Below are positions 19,396-26,871 of a stretch of DNA of 64,000 nt, in pieces. Made by a program: the position numbers and the translations under genes. Location of the stretch: the NCBI RefSeq assembly GCF_003574735.1, contig NZ_QORW01000002.1:372001-436000 (forward strand), written 5' to 3'. Within the stretch, counting starts at the first letter, position 1; the number at the start of each line of letters is the position of its first letter. The notes under the pieces were generated by a model that saw only the letters and a list, made by a program, of their open reading frames with translations, was not told the origin of the DNA and did not search any database. Source of the DNA: Dongia deserti (GTDB lineage: Bacteria; Pseudomonadota; Alphaproteobacteria; Dongiales; Dongiaceae).

Positions 19396-21078
19396 GTGCC
19401 GCCGACGACCGGCCATTGGGGGCGGATCATCGCCGTTACCCGCCTGACGACCGGGCTCATCCTGTTCCTCTATGTCCTCACCCACAATCTCAACCACGCG
19501 CTCGGGTTGGTTTCGCTCGCGGCGATGGAGGCCGGGCGCCTCGTCTTTCTCGGCTTCTGGCGGCCGCTCGAGCCGATCCTCCTGCTGGCGGCGCTGCTGC
19601 ATCTTTCGATCGGGCTGCGCGCGCTCTATCGGCGCAAGAGCCTCAGGATGCCGCGCCTGGAAGCGAGCCAACTCGTGCTCGGCTTGAGCGCACCGCCGTT
19701 GATCATCCTGCACATCCTCGGCACCGCCGTTGCCCATGCGCTCTATGGAGTCGATGACCGCTACGCTTATGTGCTGTGGGCCGCCTGGACGGCGGCGCCG
19801 ATCAATGGCGTGCTGCAGAGCTCAGCTCTCGTCGTGACCTGGATCCATGGCTGCATCGGCCTCAGTTATTGGCTGCGCGTGAAGGCGTGGTTTCCGCCCT
19901 GGCGCCCCTGGCTCGGCGCGCTTGCGCTCTTGATCCCGGTGCTGGCGCTGCTGGGCTTCGTGGCCGGCGCGCGGGAAGTGGCCGCACTCGCCGCCGACCC
20001 CAACTGGCCAGCAATCCTGGATGCTAAAATCAACCTGCCCGCTCAGGACCAGGTGGCATTCCTTGACGAAGTGGGCGACTGGCTGCTGCTCGGCTTTGCC
20101 GCCATCGTCGCCGGCGTGTTCGCAGGCCGCGGCGTGCGCGCGCTAGCCACGCGCCGGCGTGCGATCACGGTCTCCTATCCCAACGGGAAGCGGGTCGTTA
20201 TCCAGCCTGGCACTAGCCTGCTGGAAGCCAGCCGCATCGGCGGCATCCCGCATGCCTCGGTATGCGGCGGACGTAGCCGCTGTTCCACCTGCAGGGTGCG
20301 GGTGATCGAAGGCGTCGACTTGCTGCCTCCTCCACAGGAGGAAGAGGATCGCGTGCTGGCCCGCATTCACGCGCCGCCAGGCGTGCGTCTCGCCTGCCAG
20401 ACGCGTCCGACGGCGCCGGTCACCATCCAGCCGCTCCTGTCGCCGGAGATCACGGCACCCAAGGCCTTGTTCCGCGGCGACCTCAGCCAGGGCAAGGAGC
20501 AGGAAGTGGCTATCCTGTTCGCCGACTTGCGCGGCTTCACCAGCATGGCGGAGCGGCGCCTGCCCTATGACGTGGTGTTCCTGCTGAACCAGTATTTCCG
20601 ACTGATGGGCGAAGCGATCCTGGCAGCAGGCGGCCATGTCGACAAGTTCATCGGCGACGGCGTCATGGCGGTGTTCGGTCTCAAGGGCCGGCCGGAGCTG
20701 GCCTCGGCCCAGGCGCTCGATGCGGCCCGCCGCATGGCGACGGCGCTCGAGATCTTCAACGTGCAGCACCGTGCCGAGCTAAAGGCGCCGTTCCGCATCG
20801 GCATCGGCATTCATTTCGGGCCGGCGATCGTGGGCGAGATGGGCTTCCCGCCCGCCCTTTCGCTGACCGCGATCGGCGACACCGTGAACACTGCCAGCCG
20901 GCTTGAGACCGCCACCAAGGAAGAGAACTGCCAGCTGCTCATCTCCGAGATCGTGGCGCACGGGGCCGAGCTGCCGGTGGACATGGGCCGGCGCTGCGAG
21001 ATCATCCTGCGCGGCCGCGAGCAGACGCTGATCGCCATTGCGATCGATGACGCAGCGACCGTTCCCGTATCGGCATGA
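19396..21078 (+). CDS. Membrane adenylate cyclase with heme-type membrane anchor and 2Fe-2S domain
   Basis: A 560-residue three-module protein. Residues 1-250 form about six helices with histidines H30, H34, H69, H106, H114 and H151 placed in helices, as in the diheme b membrane anchors of fumarate reductase and of the S. meliloti cyclase CyaC. Residues 255-345 are a plant-type ferredoxin domain with C290, C296, C299 and C334. Residues 365-550 are a class III cyclase domain with metal aspartates D377 and D421, ATP-selecting K417 and D495, and N498 and R502, so it should be active and make cAMP. A quinone or redox signal is the likely input (inference). The start is GTG 19396 behind GGGGGAGGAG. 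Confidence 0.9.
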   Translation: MPPTTGHWGRIIAVTRLTTGLILFLYVLTHNLNHALGLVSLAAMEAGRLVFLGFWRPLEPILLLAALLHLSIGLRALYRRKSLRMPRLEASQLVLGLSAPPLIILHILGTAVAHALYGVDDRYAYVLWAAWTAAPINGVLQSSALVVTWIHGCIGLSYWLRVKAWFPPWRPWLGALALLIPVLALLGFVAGAREVAALAADPNWPAILDAKINLPAQDQVAFLDEVGDWLLLGFAAIVAGVFAGRGVRALATRRRAITVSYPNGKRVVIQPGTSLLEASRIGGIPHASVCGGRSRCSTCRVRVIEGVDLLPPPQEEEDRVLARIHAPPGVRLACQTRPTAPVTIQPLLSPEITAPKALFRGDLSQGKEQEVAILFADLRGFTSMAERRLPYDVVFLLNQYFRLMGEAILAAGGHVDKFIGDGVMAVFGLKGRPELASAQALDAARRMATALEIFNVQHRAELKAPFRIGIGIHFGPAIVGEMGFPPALSLTAIGDTVNTASRLETATKEENCQLLISEIVAHGAELPVDMGRRCEIILRGREQTLIAIAIDDAATVPVSA

Positions 21079-21088
21079 GGGGGCTTCG

Positions 21089-21757
21089 TTGACGCACCGC
21101 CATTCGCCCGACCTGGTCCCGCTCCGGCTGGACCACGCCTATCTGCGCGGGGCGCCGGAGAGCGCCTATTGGTCGATCGCGCCGCACCTGATCCAGCAGG
21201 GGACGGATTCGTCCTGCTCGCTCGCGACCGCCGTGATGCTGATCAACGCGGTGCGCGGGCATGAAGGCCATCTGCGCAGTGCCGGTCCGGTCAGCGAAGC
21301 GAGCTTGCTGGACAGGCTGGGCGATCAGGCCTGGCGCGCGGCAGTCGCGCAGAACGGCGACGGGCTCAGCCTCACTGAGTTCGCCGCGGCCATGGAGCGC
21401 GCGCTGCACTGCTATGAGTGCGCCGGCAGGTGGAACATCGCAATCACGCCCGTGACCGACGCCGACGCAGCGATCGCGGATTTGCGCGGGGCATTGATCG
21501 AGATGGAGAGCGGCGGATCGGGATTCGCGGCTGCCAATTTCCATCTCGATCTGTTCTACGGCGATGGCGTCGATGTCGGGCACTTCTCGCCGATCGGCGC
21601 CTATGACGCGGCGCGCGACCGTGTCCTCATGCTGGACGTCTACAAGAAGGATTACGAGCCGGTCTGGGCCCCGTTGCCGCGCCTTGCCAGGGCGATGGCG
21701 ACACAGAGCAGGAAAACGGGCGAGCCGCGTGGTTATGCGGTAGTGCAGCGAAGATAG
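21089..21757 (+). CDS. Phytochelatin-synthase-like papain-fold protein
   Basis: A 222-residue protein of the phytochelatin synthase family (papain-like). The catalytic triad is C43 in GTDSSCSLATAVML, H165 in VGHFSPIGAYD and D183 in MLDVYKKDYEPVW. Bacterial relatives such as the Nostoc protein mostly cleave glutathione to gamma-Glu-Cys and need not make phytochelatin. The plant C-terminal metal-sensing domain is missing, as in other bacterial forms. The start is probably TTG 21089 behind GAGGGGG; an ATG at 21038 would overlap the cyclase by 41 bases. The pairing with the redox cyclase is tight (10 bases). Confidence 0.85.
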   Translation: MTHRHSPDLVPLRLDHAYLRGAPESAYWSIAPHLIQQGTDSSCSLATAVMLINAVRGHEGHLRSAGPVSEASLLDRLGDQAWRAAVAQNGDGLSLTEFAAAMERALHCYECAGRWNIAITPVTDADAAIADLRGALIEMESGGSGFAAANFHLDLFYGDGVDVGHFSPIGAYDAARDRVLMLDVYKKDYEPVWAPLPRLARAMATQSRKTGEPRGYAVVQRR

Positions 21758-21917: not shown

Positions 21918-22391
21918 TTACGACAGCCCGTGCTCTTCCTTGTAGTCGTCGATCTCGTCGGCGAGGTCGTCGTATTCGTCGCAATCGCCGCAGGCTTTCT
22001 TGAGCACGTCCAGGCGCTCCTCGGCTTTGGCGAGGTCGTTCATCTCGAGATAGAGCTCGCCCAGATACTCGTTGGCACCGAGATGGTCTGGCTCGAGGTT
22101 CAGCGCCTTTGTGTAATAGGTGAGGGCCTTGGCCTTGTCGCCCAGCTTGCGGTTGGCATAGCCGAGCAGGTTCAGCGCATCGGCATATTCGCCCTTTTCC
22201 TTGATTGACTTCTGCAGCAGCGGGATCGCCTTGGCGTATTCCTCGTCATCGATCAGATCCTCGGCCTGCTTGTATGGGTCGGCCTTCGACGAGTCCGGCG
22301 TCGAACTGGTCCCCAGCGCATAGGCGGTACCCGGCAGCGCCATCAAGCCCAGCACCACGATGGCCGCGGCGCGAAGATCGCCTCGCTTCAT
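21918..22391 (-). CDS. Exported TPR-repeat protein
   Basis: A 157-residue protein with a signal peptide (AAIVVLGLMALPGTAYA) and three to four tetratricopeptide repeats. Typical TPR positions are seen in KAIPLLQKSIKEKGEYADAL, NLLGYANRKLGDKAKALTYY and LNLEPDHLGANEYLGELYLE. TPRs mediate protein contacts. The C-terminal part has a CGDC motif and is acidic. ATG 22391 follows GGGAGGGG; a GTG three bases upstream is less likely. It stands alone; its partner is unknown. Confidence 0.88.
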   Translation of the reverse strand: MKRGDLRAAAIVVLGLMALPGTAYALGTSSTPDSSKADPYKQAEDLIDDEEYAKAIPLLQKSIKEKGEYADALNLLGYANRKLGDKAKALTYYTKALNLEPDHLGANEYLGELYLEMNDLAKAEERLDVLKKACGDCDEYDDLADEIDDYKEEHGLS

Positions 22392-22519
22392 CACATGCCC
22401 CTCCCTCTCATCTAGTTGCCCAACCTACCATGCCGGCGGCAGCGCGCACCGACAGTGAAGCAAGTCACAGATGATGCGACGCTGACGCGCATTCCGCCAT
22501 CACAAGAGCGTGACGCTGG

Positions 22520-23400: not shown

Positions 23401-26400
23401 ATGTCCGAATTGCGCCTGGCGCACGGCCTGCGTTTCGAAGAGCTCTATAACGCTGCCGGCCTGGCGCGGATCGATGCCTTGTTCGTCGATCACCTGCGCG
23501 TTTCGGACGAAGGCTTAGCAGGCCGCCTGATGGCGGCGCGGGTCGAACCGGACAAGCTCGATGCCAAGGCGGAATCGGCACTCGTCATCGCGGTGGCCGC
23601 CCACCTGGACGATTTCGTGGGCGAGCTGTTCGGCATCACGGATGAGCTCGGCGCTCTTCGCAAGCGGCACACGGACTTGGCGCCGCTCTATTCCGTGAAG
23701 CGCCTGTTCGTGCAGCGCCGCGCCCTCAAGGCGCACAACGAAGCCGCGGCCGCTACGCTCGATGCGGATGCGTTGCGCACGGAGCTGACGGCTCTCTTCG
23801 GCGGGAAGTTCGATGAGCTGACTTTCGCGACCCACGTCGACACGTGGCTGAAGGACGAAGCCAGTCACGCCCACGCACTCGATCTCGCGACGAAGTACGC
23901 GGCCTGGGCGACCCAGACGCCGGCCGGCAAGGCACTGCATCGCAAGGGCGTGCTGTTCAAGGCGCCGCGCAAAGTCGACCCGATGCATCTGGTGCATCTG
24001 GAGTCGGAGACGCGACACGGCATTCCGACGCTGAAGCTCAGCGAGGACAAGTTGCGTGCACGCGAAGGATTCCACCTGACCGATCCAGGTATGGACCTGA
24101 ACCACGCGCTGGATCAGGCCAACTACTGCATCTTCTGCCACAACCAGGGCAAGGACAGCTGCTCGCGCGGGCTCAAGGAAAAGGACGGCACCTTCAAGAA
24201 GAGCGTCTTCGGCGTAACCCTCGCCGGCTGTCCGCTCGACGAGAAGATCTCCGAGATGCACACGGTGAAGGCTGACGGTCTGCCGATCGGCGCCGTCGGC
24301 ATCATCGCCATCGACAATCCCATGTGCGCGGCGACAGGCCACCGCATCTGCAACGACTGCATGAAGGCCTGCATTTATCAGAAGCAGGACCCGGTCGATA
24401 TCCCGCAGGCGGAGACGCGCTCGCTCAAGGACGTGCTCGGTCTGCCCTGGGGCTTCGAGATCTACAGCCTGCTGACACGCTGGAACCCGCTCAACATCAA
24501 GGCGCCGATTGCAAAGGCGGCGAGTGGCCGTCGCGTGCTGGTGGTGGGCCTCGGACCCGCCGGCTATACGCTGGCGCACTATCTGCTGAATGACGGCCAC
24601 ACTGTGGTCGCGATCGACGGCCTCAAAATCGAGCCGCTCGATTCGGCGCTCTCAGGCGTCAAGCCGGACGGCAAGCGCGTCGGCTTCAAGCCGATCAAGC
24701 ATCTCTCCGAATTGCAGGAAGACCTGAACGACCGCGTGATGGCGGGCTTTGGCGGCGTCGCCGAATACGGCATCACCGTGCGGTGGGACAAGAACTTCCT
24801 GAAGATCATCCGCCTGCTGCTGGAGCGGCGCGCTCAGTTCGCAATGTTCGGCGGTGTGCGCTTCGGCGGCACCATCACCGCCGAGCAGGCGTTTGCGATG
24901 GGTTTCGATCACATCGCGCTCGCGCTGGGTGCCGGCAAGCCAACCCTGCTGTCGATGCCCGGCGGCCTGGCGCGCGGCGTGCGCATGGCCTCGGACTTCC
25001 TGATGGCGCTGCAGCTGACCGGCGCGGCCAAGCAGGATTCGATCGCGAACCTGCAGCTCCGTCTGCCCGCAGTGGTCATCGGCGGCGGCCTGACCGCCAT
25101 CGACACCGCGACCGAGGCGATGGCCTATTACCCGATGCAGGTCGAGAAGTTCCTGAAGCGATACGAGACCCTGGTCGCCGAGCATGGCGCCGAGGGCGTA
25201 CGCGCCAGGTTCTCGCCGATCGAGCTGGAAGTCGCGGACGAATTCATTGCCCATGCCAAGGCGTTCCGCGCCGAGCGGGCGCGGGCAGCCGCGGCGCGCG
25301 AAGCGCCGAGATTCTCCAAGCTGATCGATGGTTGGGGCGGCGTCACCATCGCCTATCGCCGGCGCCTGATCGATTCGCCTTCCTACACGCTGAACCACGA
25401 GGAAGTGGAAAAGGCGATGGAGGAAGGCATCCGTTTCACCGAGGGCCTGACGCCGACGCGCATCGACGAAGACAAGACCGGCCACGCCGAGCGCATTCAT
25501 TTCAAGAACGCGGACGGCGCGGAAGTCTCTCTCCCCGCGCGGGCGGTGCTGGTCGCAGCGGGCACGCGACCCAACACCGTCCTCGCGCGCGAGCATGCTG
25601 ACCACTTCCATGTCGACGGCCAGTATTTCCAAGCGCTGAACGACGAGGGCGCAGTGGTGAAGCCGGAGAAGCTCGCTAAGCCGGCCGAGGTGCGCGTGAT
25701 CACCGAGATGCGGGCCGACGGCCGCGCGACTTCGTTCTTCGGCGACCTACACCCTTCTTTCGCCGGCAACGTGGTGAAGGCGATGGGCAGCGCCAAGCTG
25801 GGTTGGCCGGTCGTGGTGCAGGCGCTGGAACGTTTGCCGGCGGCCACCAGCACTGACCACAGCACGTTCCTCGCCGATCTCAATCGCCGTCTGCGCGCGA
25901 AGATCCGCACGGTCAACCGACTGACGCCGACCATCGTCGAGGTCGTGGTGGAGGCGCCGCAAGCAGCCGCCAACTTCCTGCCCGGCGAGTTTTACCGTCT
26001 GCAGAATTTCGAGACCCTGGCTCACAAGACCCGCGACACGCGCCTCACCATGGAAGGTCTGGCGCTAACCGGCGCCTGGACTGACGTGAAGGAAGGCCTG
26101 GTCGGCCTGATCGTGCTCGAGATGGGCGGATCCTCCGACCTGTGCGCCTGGCTGCAGCCGGGCGAGCCGGTGATCCTGATGGGCCCGACCGGCACGCCGA
26201 CCCATACGCCGGCGGGCGAGACCGTGCTGCTGGCGGGCGGCGGCCTCGGCAACGCGGTGTTGTTCTCGATCGGACGCGCGCTCAAGGCTGCCGGCTCAAA
26301 AGTCGTCTATTTCGCCGGCTACAAGAAGATCCAGGACCGCTACAAGGTCGAGGAGATCGAGGCGGCGTCCGACGTGGTGGTGTGGGCGAGCGACGAGGCG

Positions 26401-26871
26401 CCGGGTTTCACCGCCGACCGGCCGCAGGACAAGGCGTTCGTCGGCAACATCGTGCAGGCGATCCTCAGCTACGCGAAGGGCGATCTCGGCGAGACCAGCA
26501 TCAAGATTCAGGATGTCGACCGCATCATCGCCATCGGCTCCGACGGCATGATGGCGGCGGTGGCGCGGGCGCGGCACGACGTGCTGAAGCCCTATCTCAA
26601 GTCGTCGCATTGCGCGATCGGCTCCATCAACTCGCCGATGCAATGCATGATGAAGGAGATCTGCGCCCAGTGCCTGCAGCCGCACAAGGATCCGGTGACG
26701 GGCGAGGAGACGGTGGTGTTCTCCTGCTTCAACCAGGACCAGAAGCTGGACGAGGTGGATTTCGGCGCCTTGCGCCAGCGCCTCGGCCAGAACTCGGTGC
26801 ACGAGAAACTGACCGTGCAGTGGATCGATCATTCCCTGAAGCAGTTGGACGAGAAGCGCGCCACGGCTTGA
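23401..26871 (+). CDS. Fused GltD/NfnB-like and PyrK/NfnA-like flavo-iron-sulfur oxidoreductase
   Basis: A 1156-residue cytoplasmic protein. Residues 1-235 are helical and not recognised. Residues 243-324 carry eight cysteines (C243, C246, C254, C277; C309, C317, C320, C324) in the arrangement that binds two 4Fe-4S clusters in GltD, NfnB and dihydropyrimidine dehydrogenase. GLGPAG at 383-388 starts an FAD domain, and VVIGGGLTAIDTA near 557 starts an NAD(P) domain. From about 831 a ferredoxin-reductase-like PyrK/NfnA module follows, with GEFYRLQ and a final 2Fe-2S cysteine set C1082, C1088, C1091, C1109. NfnAB bifurcates electrons between NADH, NADPH and ferredoxin; whether this fusion does is unknown. 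It leads the MetV-MetF-methyltransferase locus, pointing to methylene/methyl-THF redox chemistry. Confidence 0.88.
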   Translation: MSELRLAHGLRFEELYNAAGLARIDALFVDHLRVSDEGLAGRLMAARVEPDKLDAKAESALVIAVAAHLDDFVGELFGITDELGALRKRHTDLAPLYSVKRLFVQRRALKAHNEAAAATLDADALRTELTALFGGKFDELTFATHVDTWLKDEASHAHALDLATKYAAWATQTPAGKALHRKGVLFKAPRKVDPMHLVHLESETRHGIPTLKLSEDKLRAREGFHLTDPGMDLNHALDQANYCIFCHNQGKDSCSRGLKEKDGTFKKSVFGVTLAGCPLDEKISEMHTVKADGLPIGAVGIIAIDNPMCAATGHRICNDCMKACIYQKQDPVDIPQAETRSLKDVLGLPWGFEIYSLLTRWNPLNIKAPIAKAASGRRVLVVGLGPAGYTLAHYLLNDGHTVVAIDGLKIEPLDSALSGVKPDGKRVGFKPIKHLSELQEDLNDRVMAGFGGVAEYGITVRWDKNFLKIIRLLLERRAQFAMFGGVRFGGTITAEQAFAMGFDHIALALGAGKPTLLSMPGGLARGVRMASDFLMALQLTGAAKQDSIANLQLRLPAVVIGGGLTAIDTATEAMAYYPMQVEKFLKRYETLVAEHGAEGVRARFSPIELEVADEFIAHAKAFRAERARAAAAREAPRFSKLIDGWGGVTIAYRRRLIDSPSYTLNHEEVEKAMEEGIRFTEGLTPTRIDEDKTGHAERIHFKNADGAEVSLPARAVLVAAGTRPNTVLAREHADHFHVDGQYFQALNDEGAVVKPEKLAKPAEVRVITEMRADGRATSFFGDLHPSFAGNVVKAMGSAKLGWPVVVQALERLPAATSTDHSTFLADLNRRLRAKIRTVNRLTPTIVEVVVEAPQAAANFLPGEFYRLQNFETLAHKTRDTRLTMEGLALTGAWTDVKEGLVGLIVLEMGGSSDLCAWLQPGEPVILMGPTGTPTHTPAGETVLLAGGGLGNAVLFSIGRALKAAGSKVVYFAGYKKIQDRYKVEEIEAASDVVVWASDEAPGFTADRPQDKAFVGNIVQAILSYAKGDLGETSIKIQDVDRIIAIGSDGMMAAVARARHDVLKPYLKSSHCAIGSINSPMQCMMKEICAQCLQPHKDPVTGEETVVFSCFNQDQKLDEVDFGALRQRLGQNSVHEKLTVQWIDHSLKQLDEKRATA

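Follow-up and report, generated by a model that had tools for sequence, protein, structure and literature searches.

The closest described counterpart of the protein analyzed here is CyaC of S. meliloti (SMc01818; Wissig et al. 2019, Mol Microbiol, cited in PMC10463352). In the passages of PMC10463352 that treat this cyclase, its six-transmembrane (6TM) domain is described as binding two heme b, the hemes are oxidized and reduced by ubiquinone with consequences for activity, and the cyclase can be activated via oxidation by quinones; the legend of Fig. 6 in the same paper has the protein drawn with a distal and a proximal heme b and a [2Fe-2S]2+ cluster. Proteins of this kind fall into cluster 1 of the 6TM adenylate cyclases, which comprises class IIIb enzymes whose tetra-histidine, cytochrome-b-like anchor is joined to the cyclase through a ferredoxin, is represented by R. 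palustris Q132R4, and was recorded from alpha and beta Proteobacteria (Beltz et al. 2016, PMC4821796). The Dongia deserti protein is an ordinary member of this already described family, and its three-part design is that of CyaC itself. A previous sequence-only reading of this DNA had rightly assigned the protein to the CyaC type, with an anchor that resembles a diheme quinol:fumarate reductase subunit, a ferredoxin domain and an intact cyclase. It had also regarded the ferredoxin as an extra part added to CyaC, a view that we rejected because S. meliloti CyaC already carries a [2Fe-2S] cluster (PMC10463352) and the family has been defined by its ferredoxin since 2016 (PMC4821796).

The protein is encoded by an uninterrupted open reading frame at positions 19396-21078 (+) of the window, by which we mean the whole 64-kb stretch of DNA under analysis. 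This frame begins with GTG, spans 560 codons (560 amino acids) and, on the basis of its Pfam domains and full-length relatives, is annotated as a cyaC-like gene for a diheme-anchor/ferredoxin/class IIIb adenylate cyclase. Residues 6-251 (19411-20148, +) make up a predicted six-helix membrane anchor resembling fumarate-reductase subunit C, an assignment that comes from an AlphaFold model and its PDB fold match; the corresponding Pfam family, Sdh_cyt, gives a sub-threshold match (E 0.04 with the whole protein, 0.009 with the anchor alone). Residues 262-339 (20179-20412, +), which directly follow the last membrane helix and so separate the anchor from the cyclase, form a [2Fe-2S] ferredoxin domain; Pfam Fer2 matches it with an E-value of 1e-10 and a score of 41.6 bits, where the cut-off is 21. 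The class III(b) adenylate cyclase catalytic domain follows at residues 367-543 (20494-21024, +), where the Guanylate_cyc match (E 1e-18, 67.8 bits) exceeds its gathering score. The domains, the conserved ligands, the anchor fold, the intact catalytic site and the family membership are all established at the level of sequence comparison and modeling.

Modeled alone, the anchor is predicted to fold into six long helices, and the confidence of this model is high (pLDDT 94, pTM 0.89). The top four of its 118 PDB fold matches are all chain C of the Wolinella succinogenes quinol:fumarate reductase (QFR), with probabilities of 0.97-0.99 and TM scores of 0.54-0.59 over about 235 columns at 16-18% identity. 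The E-values of these matches are weak (0.4-0.8) despite the high probability, not an uncommon outcome with helical bundles, and it is telling that the top matches to the model are exactly the Wolinella diheme subunit. When the PDB was searched with a sequence profile of the anchor, only designed proteins came up, at chance level. By its modeled fold, the anchor appears to be related to the diheme cytochrome b of SQR/QFR. The full-length model has a pLDDT of 85, and its last domain matches adenylate cyclases, including 1wc1. The best cyclase match, Spirulina 'CyaC', was set aside as a distinct soluble protein that bears the same gene name.

To identify candidate ligands, we used an alignment of 33 full-length sequences (the Dongia deserti protein and 32 relatives) and a second set of 41 relatives drawn from other genomes and plasmids. 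The hydrophobic part of the protein holds six histidines, H30, H34, H69, H106, H114 and H151, in line with the six helix-embedded histidines described in the sequence-only reading. H30, H69, H106 and H151 are invariant in the first alignment (33/33); H69, H106 and H151 are likewise present in 41/41 of the second set, where H30 is never substituted and is absent from a single sequence whose alignment begins late. H34 is kept in 31 of the 33 sequences, and H114 is poorly conserved (11/33 in the first alignment, 19/41 in the second set). The invariance of four histidines, together with the scarcity of H114, leaves four candidate heme ligands rather than six, and makes H114, previously suggested for mutagenesis, a poor target. 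With one histidine in each of helices 1-4, the arrangement matches the tetra-histidine pattern expected for two bis-histidine hemes, and the earlier description of the anchor as diheme-type agrees with both these four residues and the fold match to QFR subunit C.

The orientation of the anchor suggests how these histidines may be paired. Basic residues are concentrated in the anchor loops at residues 79-87 and 160-166 and beyond residue 245, so that the positive-inside rule places the ferredoxin and cyclase domains in the cytoplasm. Given this placement and the positions of the helices, H69 in helix 2 (19600-19602, +) and H151 in helix 4 (19846-19848, +) are the predicted ligands of a proximal, cytoplasmic heme b, while H30 in helix 1 (19483-19485, +) and H106 in helix 3 (19711-19713, +) would hold a distal, periplasmic one. 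The invariance of the four residues marks them as candidates, and we infer the pairing from helix position.

The remaining two modules appear to be equally complete. The ferredoxin domain contains C290, C296, C299 and C334 with the spacing C-x5-C-x2-C-x34-C, and all four cysteines are invariant in both sets of relatives (the 33 aligned sequences and the further 41), in keeping with the full 2Fe-2S cysteine set recognized earlier. In the cyclase domain, the residues for metal binding (D377 and D421), adenine recognition (K417 and T491) and catalysis (N498 and R502) are all present, and each is kept in at least 32 of the 33 sequences and in 41/41 of the second set; T491 is the mark of class IIIb cyclases. 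The catalytic site is thus intact by sequence and of class IIIb, and the earlier claim of an intact adenylate cyclase site holds for every catalytic residue. Because these residues are conserved across many genera, chance can be ruled out as the source of the pattern.

Taken by analogy with S. meliloti CyaC, the product of this reading frame very probably makes cAMP in response to the respiratory redox state. We are confident that it acts as a homodimeric, membrane-bound, CyaC-type class IIIb cyclase that senses the redox state of the quinone pool via two hemes b and controls cAMP accordingly. In this model, the six-helix anchor would bind one heme b through H30/H106 on the periplasmic side and another through H69/H151 on the cytoplasmic side, and electrons would pass between these hemes and the quinones of the respiratory chain. 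A further redox center would be provided by the cytoplasmic [2Fe-2S] domain between anchor and cyclase. The signal would run from the quinone pool to the two hemes b and from there, perhaps by way of the [2Fe-2S] cluster, to the cyclase dimer and cAMP. An oxidized quinone pool would raise cyclase activity and a reduced pool would lower it, and the cAMP produced would report the respiratory state to CRP-like regulators. The heme and cluster content, the response to quinone and the direction of activation are taken over from S. meliloti CyaC, and homology to that protein likewise underlies the first step (quinone) and the last (cAMP to regulators). A link from respiration to cAMP, as proposed in the sequence-only reading, is the best reading of a CyaC-type protein with a diheme-like anchor.

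The step of this model most open to another interpretation is the one through the cluster. It is possible, though we think it the less likely case, that in the same protein the [2Fe-2S] center lies off the heme electron path and serves either as a separate cytoplasmic sensor of redox, oxygen or iron, so that two signals are integrated, or as a structural spacer. The partners in electron exchange of Fer2-type domains are usually soluble, and a position of the cluster close enough to the proximal heme for electron transfer is a presumption; on the other hand, all 33 aligned sequences keep the cluster cysteines along with the anchor histidines, and the ferredoxin domain begins immediately after the membrane part. 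Because this interpretation and the quinone-to-cAMP model assume the same set of parts and diverge only over what the cluster does, our confidence in the two overlaps. Both a passage of electrons from heme to cluster and a regulation of the cyclase by the cluster are best regarded as putative. That the heme-holding anchor is instead an oxidoreductase module or some other heme-based sensor in the Dongia deserti lineage is very improbable: its sequence gives no identifiable quinone site and it is the least conserved part of the protein (31-50% identity to relatives except the three closest, versus 40-52% over the full length), but its nearest fold is a quinol-oxidizing diheme subunit, and the heme b of S. 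meliloti CyaC responds to ubiquinone with activity following, as reported in the CyaC passages of PMC10463352.

Proteins of this design are common in the surrounding lineages. With a threshold of E <= 1e-60, we found a relative, in almost every case a full-length one, in 16 of the 17 genomes searched of the same family and in 110 of 385 genomes sampled from Alphaproteobacteria. The diheme-ferredoxin-cyclase design is therefore widespread in Alphaproteobacteria, with its four heme ligands, as predicted here, and four cluster ligands strictly kept. Full-length relatives with 43-47% identity occur in Sinorhizobium sp. RAC02 and Rhizobium, including plasmid copies, and two genomes labeled as Spirochaetaceae (L025 and L033) extend the distribution outside Proteobacteria with full-length relatives of 40-41% identity, in which H34 is replaced and the four candidate heme histidines are kept. 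The 6.1-Mb Dongia deserti genome contains 32 class III cyclase domains, this one included, a number close to that reported for S. meliloti (28). It also encodes 8 proteins with cNMP-binding domains, which are possible readers of the cAMP.

The gene neighborhood offers a few candidates for functional partners. A methyltransferase gene lies upstream of the cyclase gene, and a phytochelatin-synthase-like gene (21089-21757, +; PF05023, E 4e-22) begins some 10 bases past the cyclase stop codon, so that the two probably share one operon. The product of this downstream gene is 81-82% identical in the closest relatives, and its position immediately downstream is kept only in near relatives. Beyond it, in convergent orientation, are a TPR gene (21918-22394, -) and then a molybdopterin oxidoreductase gene. 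Elsewhere in the window, positions 23401-26871 (+) encode a large, unassigned flavin oxidoreductase of 1156 amino acids that is 92% identical in a close relative (L003); it has a pyridine nucleotide-disulfide oxidoreductase domain and matches Fer4_20 weakly. The TPR product is apparently exported and has a conserved C-terminal cysteine motif (CGDC/CxxxC). Its gene adjoins the cyclase in at least 22 of 74 family loci (e.g. L003, L010, L119, L128 and L150), a lower bound since many locus flanks cover only 1.5 kb, and one drawn from loci that are mutually related, a few being one genome counted twice, and so not independent. Among 75 loci of other cyclases it was found at one, which is the Dongia deserti window's own, and at 0 of the other 74. 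The adjacency spans several alphaproteobacterial lineages with varying orientation. One could speculate that CyaC-type cyclases have in this TPR protein a hitherto undescribed partner in the periplasm that modulates the diheme anchor, a proposal that we consider unlikely. Two further recurrent open reading frames that emerged from neighbor clustering look like antisense frames of real genes and were discarded. No TetR (cycR-like) gene is present in the 64-kb window, and all 32 TetR_N matches in the genome fall outside it.

These results place the Dongia deserti protein against three described systems. The predicted fold of its anchor is like that of Wolinella succinogenes FrdC, with the difference that FrdC forms a subunit of its own within an enzyme complex, whereas in Dongia deserti the diheme-like module shares one chain with a ferredoxin and a cyclase. 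With cluster 1 of the 6TM cyclases it shares the position of the ferredoxin between membrane and catalytic domains, four spaced membrane histidines and similarity to the cytochrome b of fumarate reductase and succinate dehydrogenase; we found no feature in which it differs from that cluster. The relative from Sinorhizobium sp. RAC02 is 47% identical to the Dongia deserti protein. The partner of S. meliloti CyaC is CycR, a TetR regulator whose gene adjoins cyaC, while the Dongia deserti gene stands without a neighboring TetR gene and may for this reason have a downstream partner other than CycR. Compared by its published description in the CyaC passages of PMC10463352, S. meliloti CyaC is built from the same modules: a 6TM diheme b anchor, a [2Fe-2S] domain and a class III cyclase. 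The role of the [2Fe-2S] cluster between hemes and cyclase is an already known question that can be addressed with single-residue mutants, and for this the Dongia deserti protein is a useful comparison to the one studied protein, S. meliloti CyaC.
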